Origin: Cecembia sp.
GTDB taxonomy: Bacteria > Bacteroidota > Bacteroidia > Cytophagales > Cyclobacteriaceae
Assembly: GCF_007126775.1 (NCBI RefSeq)
Contig: NZ_SLAP01000165.1
Coordinates: 1-64,000 of the forward strand
Reading direction: 5' to 3'
Length of the DNA stretch: 64,000 bases
Shown here: piece by piece, positions 53,458 through 60,703 of the stretch
Layout of the letters: each line of letters starts with the position of its first letter
Numbering within the stretch: the stretch's first letter is position 1
Notes under the pieces: model-generated
The model's database searches: none
Told to the model about the DNA's origin: nothing
Seen by the model: the letters and a program-made list of their open reading frames with translations, nothing else
Made by a program: the position numbers and the translations under genes

Positions 53458-55791
53458 TTATAACATGCCTTCGATCGACTTTTCCAATTCGCGAGCATGG
53501 GCCAAAAACTCCTCCACATTCATGTCCTTGAAAAATATCAATCCATGACTTGACCTTACTTTGGCTGATTCATGGAGATAGAAGTAATTTTTACCAAGCA
53601 ATAACTGTATATCATTCAATTGACTGACCCATATTCTTTTGGCTACAGTACTGAATTTGCCATTATGGGAATAACTTGGAAAAGAAGCATTGACCTGGCT
53701 CAGGTAGCAATTGGAAAAGGAGTCTTCCATGACTGACATATCTCCCAATGAAACGGGAACAATAACGTTCGCCTCATGTGGCTCGAATTTGAACCATACA
53801 TTCCTATAACCAACGATCCTCAATTCACTTAAATCTTTTTCCTCAGCCCATTGCCTCACTGCTTCTGCTGTAGCTTGAAGTACTTTGTAGTGGGTATCGG
53901 GTCCCGAGCCTTCCGGATCCAAGGTTAGACTTATTTTGGTGGGGTTAACCCTTCTAAACATTTCCACAATTGGTTCTACATCCCGCTTCTTATCAGGCTG
54001 TTCGGTGAAAATATCTCCAGTGTAAAACCCAAGCCTTAGGTGATGGACGTTTTGCACCTGTACGCCAAAATGGGCCCAAACAAGTTCTTCTTCAAACTCC
54101 CTGATCATCCCTTTTAATTTTTGGATTTTTGAAGGGTTCTTCTCACCATCATAACTATTTCTCAATATGCTAATGACATCATTGATGGTTTCTCGGAGTT
54201 TTTGCTTGTTCTTCACCTCAAAAATATCCACCAGAGCCCGAACCACCCTGTGGCAAAGTCCCCGCATTCTACCAGCAGAATCTTCCGCGGCAACTTTAGT
54301 CAAATAATGGTAAACATCCTTATCTGTTTTAAGCTTATATCCGATTTCAAAGAAATCATCATAATGCACCATCTGAATCTCTCCATCATCTAATAACCTT
54401 TTGGTATGCAAGAGTGTATCTATTACAAAAGTATTGGTGACCGCAGTAAACCCGGAAGTAAGAACTGAAAAGTGGGCCTCATTGCTGTTTTCCTGTAATT
54501 GATTGGTGATATGAGGCAATATTCCCAGAGAAATATCATCATGATGTGGTCCAGTATGAAGAATAACCTCTTGCTTTTCTTTTGCTGTGCCCCGATTGAT
54601 TTTTTCAATTACACTCTGAACAACCCGATTAACTGTTTCCTCAGAAAGATCAGGGATTAAAGCCGTATACTTGTCGTTTTTTAAATCTTCCAGTTTCAAC
54701 CTGTGTCCATATTTCCCCAGTTTTTTACAGAGCTCGATTACAGAACGCTCTGTTTTCTCCCAAGTCCACTCCCCAGACTTATAGTAAGTATCTACTGAAT
54801 CAGTAAGCCGTACAGCAGCTCCTTTAGTAAGGAAAAATCTGCCATTCTTTAATTTTTGAAGTGCAGTAGCAGGATAAACATTGCTCAAACTATTTTCAAG
54901 AGAATCTTTCACAATTTGGGCTTTGGCTTCCCCTGCGGCTATAATAATGGCTACCGCATCTTTATTATAGGTAATGGTTTCGAGTCCAATTGTAATCACC
55001 AATCTATTTGCTGAAACTTCTATTCCTCCCAAATCACCCGCTGCAACTGCCTGGGTTTCAAAATTGGTCTCTGTCAATCGGGTAGGCGAAAAAAGATGGG
55101 AACCTCTCGTATTAAAAGCTATGTGTCCATCAGGACCTATACCCCCAAGAAAAAAACCTATCCCACCGAGATCCCTTATTCTTTGTTCATATTCTGCACA
55201 CCACTGATCAATTAAATAGATGGACTCTTGCTGCATTTTTTCTAGAACGCTTACAGGTTCTCTGAATCTCAAAGATAAATCTACTTTAAGGTCTGGAAAT
55301 ATTTCCCTGTAATGCTTGCCTCCTGAAAGTGGAATTTCATCAGAGTTGATCAAAATAGCTTTCTCCTTACTCAATCCAAAACCTTCGAGATAAAACTTAT
55401 TGACATAATGAAAAAAACTATTGTTCTGCTTAGAAGAAATCGGATAAAACTCATCAATCTGTACAAAAGTGAGTTCATTTAAAACCGGCTTCTTGGTTTT
55501 ACCCAGATTATACCTTTCCCTGATCTCTTTACCTTTTTTGCTGTCCCAGTTTTCCAATAAATATTGACTCCATTTGATAAAATATTCAGGCGTTTTGCCA
55601 GTAGGCAAACTGATTACACCGCGGGGATTTTCTGCAGCCCATTCCAAAAATCTACAGGCGGTGATCAATCCCAATTTGGGGAAATTGTCAACCGTCAGGT
55701 ATGGTATTTTGGAATTAATGGAAGTGATTCCAGATTCCTCCTGAAAGGCTTTTTCAACATCGGATAGTGGATAGTTGCTGAGCATATGCAC
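53458..55791 (-). CDS. nagB: Glucosamine-6-phosphate deaminase fused to a PIG-L/LmbE-like domain
   Basis: A 777-residue two-domain protein. N-terminal NagB part (about 35-340): VISLPTGKTPEYF, LTFVQIDEFYP and GGIGPDGHIAFN carry the phosphate-binding and catalytic residues for converting glucosamine-6-phosphate to fructose-6-phosphate and ammonia. C-terminal part (about 400-640) begins VILHTGPHHDDISLG, like PIG-L/LmbE N-deacetylases, where the usual HPDD reads HHDD. This fusion is known in Bacteroidota. It could combine deacetylation and deamination of GlcNAc-6-phosphate. The ROK kinase downstream fits amino sugar use. Confidence 0.9.
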   Translation of the reverse strand: MHMLSNYPLSDVEKAFQEESGITSINSKIPYLTVDNFPKLGLITACRFLEWAAENPRGVISLPTGKTPEYFIKWSQYLLENWDSKKGKEIRERYNLGKTKKPVLNELTFVQIDEFYPISSKQNNSFFHYVNKFYLEGFGLSKEKAILINSDEIPLSGGKHYREIFPDLKVDLSLRFREPVSVLEKMQQESIYLIDQWCAEYEQRIRDLGGIGFFLGGIGPDGHIAFNTRGSHLFSPTRLTETNFETQAVAAGDLGGIEVSANRLVITIGLETITYNKDAVAIIIAAGEAKAQIVKDSLENSLSNVYPATALQKLKNGRFFLTKGAAVRLTDSVDTYYKSGEWTWEKTERSVIELCKKLGKYGHRLKLEDLKNDKYTALIPDLSEETVNRVVQSVIEKINRGTAKEKQEVILHTGPHHDDISLGILPHITNQLQENSNEAHFSVLTSGFTAVTNTFVIDTLLHTKRLLDDGEIQMVHYDDFFEIGYKLKTDKDVYHYLTKVAAEDSAGRMRGLCHRVVRALVDIFEVKNKQKLRETINDVISILRNSYDGEKNPSKIQKLKGMIREFEEELVWAHFGVQVQNVHHLRLGFYTGDIFTEQPDKKRDVEPIVEMFRRVNPTKISLTLDPEGSGPDTHYKVLQATAEAVRQWAEEKDLSELRIVGYRNVWFKFEPHEANVIVPVSLGDMSVMEDSFSNCYLSQVNASFPSYSHNGKFSTVAKRIWVSQLNDIQLLLGKNYFYLHESAKVRSSHGLIFFKDMNVEEFLAHARELEKSIEGML

Positions 55792-57392: not shown

Positions 57393-59327
57393 ATGATATG
57401 TATTGTAACAGGTGTTTCAGGCAGTGGTAAAACGACCATTGGCACACTTCTTTCCAAAAAAACCCATCTGCCATTTTTTGATGCAGATGATTTCCACCCC
57501 GGTACCAATGTGGAAAAAATGTCCCAAGGTATACCTTTAACGGACCATGACCGTATGCCTTGGCTACAACATTTGGCAAACAAGATTCAAGATTGGGAAA
57601 AAAGCGGTGGGGCTATTCTGGCCTGTTCAGCCCTTAAAGAAACCTACAGACAGATACTGCATGCTGTTCCAGACATCCTTTGGGTTCACCTTCAGGGAGA
57701 AAGACCCAGTCTTGAAGAACGATTGAAAAAGAGGCAAAATCGCTACATGCCCCCAGGTTTGCTGAATTCCCAGATTGATGCATGGGAGCAGCCTGACTAT
57801 GGTCTTCATCTTGATATCAAAGATACTCCTGAGAGTATGGTGAATATCATCATAGAGAAGCTAAGGTTAAAAAGCCCAAACTCCCATATAGGCATAATAG
57901 GAATGGGAGTGATGGGAAAAAGTCTCGCACTCAATATGGCAGAAAATGGTATCCCAATTGCTGTTTACAACAGGTTTGTCGTAGGAAAGGAAGAGCATAT
58001 CGCTACAGGATTCGCCGCCACAAACAAGCATTTCCCACTGCTGAAAGGATTTGATGAACTGGCATTGTTTGTACAAAACTTGGAAAGCCCTAAAAAGATC
58101 CTTTTGATGATTCCTGCGGGTGAAGCCATTGATCACCAAATTGGGGATTTGCTTCCTTTTCTTCAAAAAGGAGATATTCTTATTGATGGAGGGAATTCTT
58201 TTTTTGAAGATTCAAGCAAAAGATATGATTATCTTGCTAGCAAAGGTATTCATTTTTTACCCATGGGCGTTTCTGGAGGAGAAGAAGGGGCTAGGAAAGG
58301 ACCTTCTCTAATGCCGGGCGGCAACGCAGAGGCCTATGAATTACTTTTCCCTTATCTCCAAAAAATTGCAGCAAAAGATAAAAACGGGAAAGCCTGTGTA
58401 ACTTATGTGGGTCCACAGGGCGCCGGTCATTTTATCAAAATGGTTCATAATAGCATAGAATATGGTGAAATGCAGGTCATTGCAGAAACAGTTCATCTTT
58501 TGCGCTATGGTATGAAACTGAGTGCAGTTGAAGTTGCGAAAATTCTTAGAAACTGGATAGCTGAAGGCCTAAGTAGTTATTTATTGGAAATTACGGCAGA
58601 TATTCTGGAGATACAGGAAAACGAGGAGTTGATTTTAGACAAAATCCTGGATAAAGCGGGACAAAAAGGGACCGGAAATTGGTCTATTTCAACTGCACTG
58701 AAATACAATACCCCTTATAGCCCTCTTTTCGAAGCAGTGACCGCAAGGCAGTTATCCGCTAACAAAGAAGAAAGAACGCAGCTTTCCAAGGAATACAGTC
58801 ACCGGTTCAGGGCATTTGCAGGAGACAAGGTGCTGCTTTTAGATCATTTGAAAAATGCATTCAGATTGGTCCGAATCATTAATCATGAAACAGGTTTTGA
58901 CCTTATGCACAAAGTGTCTTCTTCACTTCATTGGAATTTAAATTTTTCAGAGATTGCAAGGATATGGACAAATGGCTGCATCATTCGTTCAAAGTTAATG
59001 GAAGATTTGGTGGCTATTTTTCAAGAAAATCCTTCAATCATTCATCACAAAGCCCTTGTCGGAAAAATTAAAGAGTGGAAATCTGACCTTGCCTATCTTA
59101 TCGGTTTAGGACTTAGTCACGACTTCGCTCTTCCGGTAATGTCTGCTAGCTTAAACTACCTTTTAGGTAGAATAATTGAAGCCTCTTCAGCCAATATGAT
59201 CCAAGCCCAAAGGGACTACTTCGGTGCCCATACCTATATCAGAAATGATGATCCTAAAGGTCTTGCAAAGCATACAGATTGGCTTTTGTTAAAAGAAAAA
59301 CATCAAAATAAAGATAATGCCTTATGA
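57393..59327 (+). CDS. Fusion of gluconokinase and 6-phosphogluconate dehydrogenase
   Basis: A 644-residue two-enzyme protein. Residues 1-158 are a GntK-type gluconokinase: Walker A GVSGSGKTT (7-15), DADDFHPGTNVEKMSQGIPLTDHDR and LACSALKETYR. Residues 164-644 are a full 6-phosphogluconate dehydrogenase: GMGVMG (NADP loop), VSGGEEGARKGPSLMPGG, the catalytic-Lys segment FIKMVHNSIEYGEMQ, KGTGNW and QAQRDYFGAHTY. Gluconate would be phosphorylated, oxidised and decarboxylated to ribulose-5-phosphate by one polypeptide. No internal stop or frameshift separates the parts, and each is about the normal length. Stop overlaps the next gene (ATGA). No gluconate transporter or zwf is nearby. Confidence 0.93.
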   Translation: MICIVTGVSGSGKTTIGTLLSKKTHLPFFDADDFHPGTNVEKMSQGIPLTDHDRMPWLQHLANKIQDWEKSGGAILACSALKETYRQILHAVPDILWVHLQGERPSLEERLKKRQNRYMPPGLLNSQIDAWEQPDYGLHLDIKDTPESMVNIIIEKLRLKSPNSHIGIIGMGVMGKSLALNMAENGIPIAVYNRFVVGKEEHIATGFAATNKHFPLLKGFDELALFVQNLESPKKILLMIPAGEAIDHQIGDLLPFLQKGDILIDGGNSFFEDSSKRYDYLASKGIHFLPMGVSGGEEGARKGPSLMPGGNAEAYELLFPYLQKIAAKDKNGKACVTYVGPQGAGHFIKMVHNSIEYGEMQVIAETVHLLRYGMKLSAVEVAKILRNWIAEGLSSYLLEITADILEIQENEELILDKILDKAGQKGTGNWSISTALKYNTPYSPLFEAVTARQLSANKEERTQLSKEYSHRFRAFAGDKVLLLDHLKNAFRLVRIINHETGFDLMHKVSSSLHWNLNFSEIARIWTNGCIIRSKLMEDLVAIFQENPSIIHHKALVGKIKEWKSDLAYLIGLGLSHDFALPVMSASLNYLLGRIIEASSANMIQAQRDYFGAHTYIRNDDPKGLAKHTDWLLLKEKHQNKDNAL

Positions 59328-60703
59328 AAAAAATACATCTTACCCTTGTTTTGCTTATCCTCTTTGTTTGTTGCAAGGTCAGGATTTCAGAGGCTCAGGA
59401 GTATTTGTTAAAAAATGTTCACGTTCTGAAACTTGATGACAACACAGTCCTGAAATCACAAAATATCCATGTGCGGGATGGGGAAATCATCAACTTTTAT
59501 TCAGCATCCAGTATCCCTTCATTGATAGATCAGATTGAAATTATTGATGGTCATGGAGGCTATATCTATCCCGGTCTGGCTGAAATGCATTCCCATATTC
59601 CAACTACGGAAACAGAGGATTTCTCTTACATCCAAGATGTCATGTGGTTGTACCTGGCCAATGGCATCTTGAATGTGAGAGGAATGATCGGTCATGCTTC
59701 TCATTTGCAACTTAAAAGTAAAATTAGCCAAGGAGAAATTACTGGTCCAAGAATTTTTGCAGCAGGCCCTTCTTTAAATGGATCTTCTGTTGAAGATCCA
59801 AAAATGGGCATAAAAATGGTACTAGAACAAAAAAAGCTTGGCTACGACCACTTGAAGCTTCATCCTGGATTGGATATGCCTAGGTTTTTGGCCATTGCCA
59901 ATACAGCCAAAGATGTAGATATTAAATTTGGGGGACACGTTTCTCTCGAGGTGGGATTAGAAAATTCTCTCAATCATGGATACCGTTCTGTTGAACACAT
60001 AGATGGTTACATCGAAGCACTTATTGAAGATAAAAGCAAGCTGGATCCCCAAATTGCCGGTCCTTTCAGTATGCTTTTGGTCAAAGAAGCAAACTTGGAT
60101 AGATTACCGGAAATGGTTCAGCTGACTTTGGATACAGATGCATGGATTGCCCCTACCCTTACCCTTTTTGAGAGGTTTTTTGGATATATCCCAGCCGATG
60201 AATTCAGATTGGAAGAGGAGATGAAATACATGCCAGGAATTCAGGTACAGCAGTGGGTTAATCAGAAAAAATTATTGGAAAACCAAGGTGTGCTCAGAGC
60301 TGAAAATGTCAAACCCTACCTGGAATTCAGGCAAATGTTATTAAAAAAGCTCTATGATGCAGGTGTCCCCATTCTGATGAGTTCTGATTCTCCTCAAGTA
60401 TTTAATGTACCGGGCTTCTCCATTCATAATGAGATCAAATCTATGCATGAATCAGGATTGACAGCCTTGGATATTTTGAGATCTGGTTCGAGAAATGTTG
60501 CCCGCTATTTTGATCGGGAGGGTGAATTTGGAATTCTGGAAAAAGGTGCATCAGCCGACTTTGTCCTGGTTTCAGGTAATCCATTGGAGGACTTAAATCA
60601 ATTAAAGCATGTAAAAGGAGTAATGCTTAGAGGTGAGTGGATAGATCAGAAAAAGATTCAGGCGGAATTAGAACGGATCAAGGAGAAAAATATAAGAAAA
60701 TAA
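59324..60703 (+). CDS. Exported amidohydrolase family protein
   Basis: A 459-residue protein with a signal peptide (MKKIHLTLVLLILFVCCKV..., to about residue 24); two Cys residues near its end could make it a lipoprotein. The amidohydrolase metal site is visible: HSH in YPGLAEMHSHIP, Lys/His in LKLHPGL, GGHVS, VEHIDGY and the Asp in SSDSPQV. ILEKGASADFVLVSGNPLED is the usual C-terminal composite domain. It resembles imidazolonepropionase-like or prolidase-type exported hydrolases. Coupled to the GntK-Gnd gene by ATGA, although no metabolic link is obvious. Substrate unknown. Confidence 0.85.
   Translation: MKKIHLTLVLLILFVCCKVRISEAQEYLLKNVHVLKLDDNTVLKSQNIHVRDGEIINFYSASSIPSLIDQIEIIDGHGGYIYPGLAEMHSHIPTTETEDFSYIQDVMWLYLANGILNVRGMIGHASHLQLKSKISQGEITGPRIFAAGPSLNGSSVEDPKMGIKMVLEQKKLGYDHLKLHPGLDMPRFLAIANTAKDVDIKFGGHVSLEVGLENSLNHGYRSVEHIDGYIEALIEDKSKLDPQIAGPFSMLLVKEANLDRLPEMVQLTLDTDAWIAPTLTLFERFFGYIPADEFRLEEEMKYMPGIQVQQWVNQKKLLENQGVLRAENVKPYLEFRQMLLKKLYDAGVPILMSSDSPQVFNVPGFSIHNEIKSMHESGLTALDILRSGSRNVARYFDREGEFGILEKGASADFVLVSGNPLEDLNQLKHVKGVMLRGEWIDQKKIQAELERIKEKNIRK

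Follow-up and report, generated by a model that had tools for sequence, protein, structure and literature searches.

The question raised by this 64,000-nucleotide stretch of Cecembia sp. DNA (the window, referring to the whole stretch analyzed) is whether one of its open reading frames, which appears to join two enzymes of gluconate use, encodes a genuine bifunctional protein and, if so, how such a fusion arose and what it offers its carriers. The frame runs uninterrupted from ATG to TGA with no internal stop codons (Table 1). The first-pass annotation had named a sequencing error hiding a stop between residues 158 and 164 as a possible refutation, and inspection of the DNA revealed no stop there. 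Residues 4-138 score 142.3 bits against TIGR01313, the model for GntK/IdnK-type gluconokinases (cut-off 113.75), and residues 164-633 score 505 bits against the gnd models TIGR00873 and NF006765 (cut-offs 427 and 413), with the Pfam families PF03446 and PF00393 also recognized in the Gnd half. Alignment with homologues demonstrates conservation of kinase residues G7-T15, D30, D32, H35, D51, D53, R54, and R114, which are near-invariant across the fused class, while the Gnd catalytic residues K349, H352, N353, and E356 (within KMVHNxxEY) are invariant across the fusions. With both family cut-offs passed and these residues conserved, the initial reading of two gluconate-use enzymes in one frame holds, and the gene is predicted to encode a bifunctional gluconokinase and 6-phosphogluconate dehydrogenase.

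Table 1. Coordinates, within the window, of the fused gene, its domains and motifs, and the adjoining downstream gene.
Feature	Position	Strand	Remarks
Whole fused gene, gluconokinase and 6-phosphogluconate dehydrogenase	57393..59327	+	644 aa
GntK-type gluconokinase domain, residues 1-157	57393..57863	+	TIGR01313 above cut-off; matches gluconate kinases 1knq, 3t61, 4eun
Walker A motif GVSGSGKT, residues 7-14	57411..57434	+	near-invariant in fused and split homologues
Linker, residues 158-163; site of former gntK stop / gnd start	57864..57881	+	2-6 aa in relatives
Gnd NAD(P)-binding domain, residues 164-340	57882..58412	+	PF03446 at residues 166-340
Cofactor loop NRFVVGKEEH, residues 193-202	57969..57998	+	Asn-Arg kept, Phe replaces Ser/Thr, inserted residues
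Gnd C-terminal helical domain, residues 345-630	58425..59282	+	PF00393
Gnd catalytic segment KMVHNSIEY, residues 349-357	58437..58463	+	K, H, N, E, Y invariant
Amidohydrolase-family gene downstream	59324..60703	+	4-nt overlap (ATGA) with fused gene

In an AlphaFold2 model of the fused protein, both halves are confidently folded (mean pLDDT 89.7, pTM 0.74), with lower confidence near residues 111-130, 151-160, and 421-430. A sequence search of solved structures returned no chain spanning both halves, and the best matches were structures of separate Gnds and separate gluconokinases. The gluconokinase half would convert D-gluconate and ATP to 6-phosphogluconate, which the Gnd half would then oxidatively decarboxylate to ribulose-5-phosphate, CO2, and NAD(P)H. 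The short linker (2-6 residues) would allow substrate channeling of 6-phosphogluconate between the two, although the fusion does not by itself imply it, as the first-pass annotation had supposed, and a natural one-chain enzyme leading from gluconate to ribulose-5-phosphate offers a ready test case for channeling. Candidate internal starts for a free Gnd lie at residues 149/150 (at the kinase end) or at residue 171 or beyond (inside the Rossmann motif), and none is convincing. A scan for promoter and terminator consensus sequences gave nothing useful above chance.

The same domain order was found well beyond this contig, with 96 distinct fused proteins recovered across the fetched Bacteroidota loci and the full-length fusion present in 51 of 196 genomes of the same family. 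Among the named carriers are Cecembia, Algoriphagus, Mongoliibacter, Aquiflexum, Indibacter, Cesiribacter, Echinicola, Lacihabitans, Emticicia, Winogradskyella, Olleya, Lacinutrix, and Psychroserpens, together with metagenome-assembled genomes of Saprospiraceae. A sequencing or assembly artefact that joined two genes might be imagined, as split overlapping homologues exist that are one frameshift away from fusion, but the fused homologues come from independent assemblies (one-contig genomes included), and so many distinct relatives leave local sequencing error as no explanation; the probability of such an artefact is negligible. The fusion is genuine and widespread in one phylum, the Bacteroidota. 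Four genomes of the phylum sample were counted as split because translation demonstrated separate open reading frames. One genome of the family has two copies of the fusion that belong to different lineages: the first groups with flavobacterial forms, and the second has gntP directly downstream, a possible case of lateral transfer.

The split homologues also bear on the origin of the fusion. In a Gnd tree built with a quick method, a branch with 99% support divides the fused forms, together with six of the split pairs, from the separate Gnds and all other split pairs. Of the six split pairs grouped with the fused forms, five have the same 8-nt overlap, running from the gnd start to the gntK stop. 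A methionine stands just before the Gnd domain in 73 of the 96 fused proteins, compared with ~28 expected from composition (a descriptive comparison, the rows being related), and has been lost from the window's own protein. The methionine marks the place where gnd once started, and both observations fit an origin of the fusion from overlapping genes, which is probable: in a Bacteroidota gntK-gnd pair with an overlap of a few bases, a frameshift there would have joined the two frames. The split, overlapping, and fused forms, together with the methionine scar, make the history of this gene fusion unusually easy to read.

Compared with known systems, the kinase half shares the whole fold and the motifs of GntK/IdnK-type gluconokinases (TIGR01313; e.g., E. 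coli GntK, PDB 1knq), the difference being that the E. coli type is free-standing whereas here the kinase forms the N-terminal half of a fusion. Likewise, the second half has the full-length domain and catalytic residues of decarboxylating 6-phosphogluconate dehydrogenases (TIGR00873/NF006765), but differs from the usual gnd product in having an aromatic residue or His after Asn-Arg, an inserted cofactor loop, and a fused kinase. Fusions of glucose-6-phosphate dehydrogenase to 6-phosphogluconolactonase or to 6-phosphogluconate dehydrogenase are known (PMC3148214, PMC11237513) and resemble the GntK-Gnd protein in linking, within one chain, oxidative pentose phosphate enzymes that act consecutively or nearly so. 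Those proteins include glucose-6-phosphate dehydrogenase, whereas the GntK-Gnd fusion starts from gluconate and occurs mostly where that dehydrogenase is missing. The gluconate shunt of obligate methanotrophs (PMC8062543), which employs glucose dehydrogenase (GDH) and GntK, similarly leads from glucose through gluconate to 6-phosphogluconate, but uses separate enzymes and can feed the Entner-Doudoroff pathway as well. No published description of a GntK-Gnd fusion was found in the papers searched, all of them open-access full texts. Since both halves belong to known families, the protein combines known parts in a new way.

The remaining gene content of the Cecembia genome (3.8 Mb in 254 contigs, 91.7% complete) indicates how the fused enzyme might be used. 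Within this assembly, the fused gene is the sole gnd found (other PF03446 matches are weak), and no further gluconokinase scores above the cut-off; the first-pass annotation had proposed a search for a separate gnd elsewhere, and had named a second gntK beside an inactive kinase half as evidence against its reading. Neither this assembly nor a genome of the same genus has a match to the zwf model TIGR00871. The search for edd (TIGR01196, cut-off 708) returned only two ILVD/EDD (PF00920) proteins, a sugar-acid dehydratase-like protein and an IlvD, at 226 and 238 bits, so that Entner-Doudoroff use of 6-phosphogluconate is rejected on this assembly and the earlier suggestion of a pentose phosphate rather than an Entner-Doudoroff fate gains support for this genome. 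Import or production of gluconate by the organism is plausible given its symporters of the GntP family (one of which exceeds the TIGR00791 cut-off), two SMP-30 lactonase-family genes, and four Gluconate_2-dh3 family genes. With no zwf or edd in the assembly, the organism would enter the oxidative pentose phosphate route from gluconate, imported or produced in the periplasm, and the fused enzyme would presumably contribute to the supply of reductant. Contig C54 of the same genome carries an uncharacterized sugar oxidation locus (L183:735-7327) containing a hexulose-6-phosphate synthase-like gene (below cut-off), a Zn-alcohol dehydrogenase, an SDR, an SMP-30 lactonase, a sugar-phosphate deaminase-like gene, and an FAD lactone-oxidase-like gene.

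The absence of zwf extends to many other carriers. Among the family genomes sampled, 13 of the 51 with the fusion have zwf, compared with 57 of the 61 in which gnd is separate (38 and 4, respectively, lack it; Fisher p 2e-14, uncorrected for shared ancestry), in searches for the TIGR00871 type of glucose-6-phosphate dehydrogenase. Three of the four zwf-less genomes with a separate gnd have gntK and gnd adjacent and overlapping. The phylum sample gives a similar distribution, with zwf in 2 of 10 fused genomes, in none of 12 with split gntK-gnd pairs (separate but near, 11 within ~240 nt and one ~2 kb apart), and in 70 of the 94 whose gnd is separate; zwf is also absent from 28 of the 32 searched genomes that hold named loci. 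Linkage of gntK and gnd, whether by fusion or adjacency, thus tracks the absence of zwf, which is most simply taken to mean that 6-phosphogluconate in such genomes derives from gluconate rather than from glucose-6-phosphate. Because it occurs mostly where zwf is missing, the fusion probably gives its carriers another way into the pathway, which suggests how bacteria lacking glucose-6-phosphate dehydrogenase could still maintain flux through the oxidative pentose phosphate pathway and generate NAD(P)H.

The 13 zwf-positive carriers indicate that the fusion is not strictly tied to zwf loss. They also lend something to the alternative that enzymes of a gluconate operon were joined by chance, as a fusion of convenience without a functional connection to zwf loss, and that the association reflects shared ancestry; the overlapping gntK-gnd pairs offer ready material for such an event, and the sampled genomes are highly related. 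Yet several families within the phylum sample show the same association, and at least 5 of the 13 zwf-bearing carriers have, by coordinates, a second, separate gnd beside zwf, which makes chance joining rather unlikely. The preferred account, that of a bifunctional enzyme providing gluconate entry in the absence of zwf and edd and originating by a frameshift in an overlap, is considered likely as a whole. In three of the fused carriers, zwf scores only 464-469 bits, compared with >600 for most zwf of the family, and may represent a divergent or acquired glucose-6-phosphate dehydrogenase.

Gene neighborhoods provide further insight, largely from relatives. Within the window, no neighbor of the fused gene points to gluconate. 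The downstream amidohydrolase gene follows the fused gene in 41 of 81 analyzed loci, and this adjacency carries no information on the function of the fused gene. A 777-aa glucosamine-6-phosphate deaminase-like protein with a long C-terminal extension is encoded at window positions 53458-55791 on the reverse strand, and its gene adjoins the fused gene in ~19 relatives. Elsewhere, the gluconate symporter gene gntP lies directly downstream of the fused gene in many relatives (e.g., in Cesiribacter, Flavisolibacter, and Saprospiraceae loci), including, by coordinates, 12 genomes of the family. In Lutimonas and one relative, the fused gene is preceded by genes for a GMC oxidoreductase, a Gluconate_2-dh3 subunit, and an SMP-30 lactonase, in that order, an arrangement that possibly constitutes a complete sugar-oxidation route to ribulose-5-phosphate. 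This operon is seen at L092:2693-7872 and at L106, and L090 has it without the lactonase. A transhydrogenase alpha-type gene follows the fused gene in one Cesiribacteraceae locus. Family assignments, residue conservation, and the gntP, lactonase, and oxidoreductase neighbors in relatives support a place for the fusion in gluconate use.

A different setting is found in ~15 flavobacterial loci, where the fused gene lies within an alginate-lyase operon together with genes for PF08787 and PF14592 lyases, an Nramp-like transporter, an SDR, a heparinase-II/III-type lyase, and a cupin. Compact versions of this operon occur at 14 loci of marine Flavobacteriaceae. Gluconate is no obvious intermediate of alginate breakdown, and two papers on alginate loci make no mention of a gntK-gnd fusion gene. 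The company of the SDR, transporter, and cupin could mean that, at least in these operons, the substrate of the kinase half has shifted to a different hexonate or deoxy-hexonate, so that not every copy of the fusion would be a gluconate enzyme. Against this, the motif residues of the kinase scarcely vary across the class, the gluconate-related neighbors at other loci indicate gluconate, and a 6-phosphogluconate dehydrogenase partner suits that substrate, making such drift improbable. One may tentatively speculate that much of the Bacteroidota swapped glucose-6-phosphate entry for gluconate entry through the fused enzyme, fed by extracytoplasmic sugar oxidation or gluconate uptake, and that marine Flavobacteriaceae recruited the fusion into alginate operons, where it might supply reductant for the uronate reductase or act on a hexonate so far not linked to alginate breakdown.

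The unusual cofactor loop is shared by the fused class as a whole. The observation in the first-pass annotation that this loop reads NRF is confirmed, with Asn-Arg kept at the 2'-phosphate site, Phe as the third residue, and a loop insertion; its suggestion that cofactor choice may differ stands only in part, as a full change to NAD is not indicated. Across the fused class, the site has Asn in 96 of 96 proteins and Arg in 95 of 96, and His, Phe, or Tyr occupies the position of the Ser or Thr of NADP enzymes in 82 of 96. The insertion of several residues is absent from all but one of the sampled standalone Gnds. In the Thermotoga enzyme, the single substitution of Asp for Asn32 increases the NADP Km ~460-fold (PMC5090862). 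The retention of Asn-Arg argues against a full switch, and a clean change to NAD is unsupported for the fused class; judging from the residues at this site, loss of Thr and the longer loop may relax cofactor specificity. Within the family, the NAD-type Asp is instead found in several zwf-linked separate Gnds. Among the separate Gnds encoded beside zwf at ten Cyclobacteriaceae loci, most have Asp in place of Asn, which suggests that these enzymes prefer NAD.
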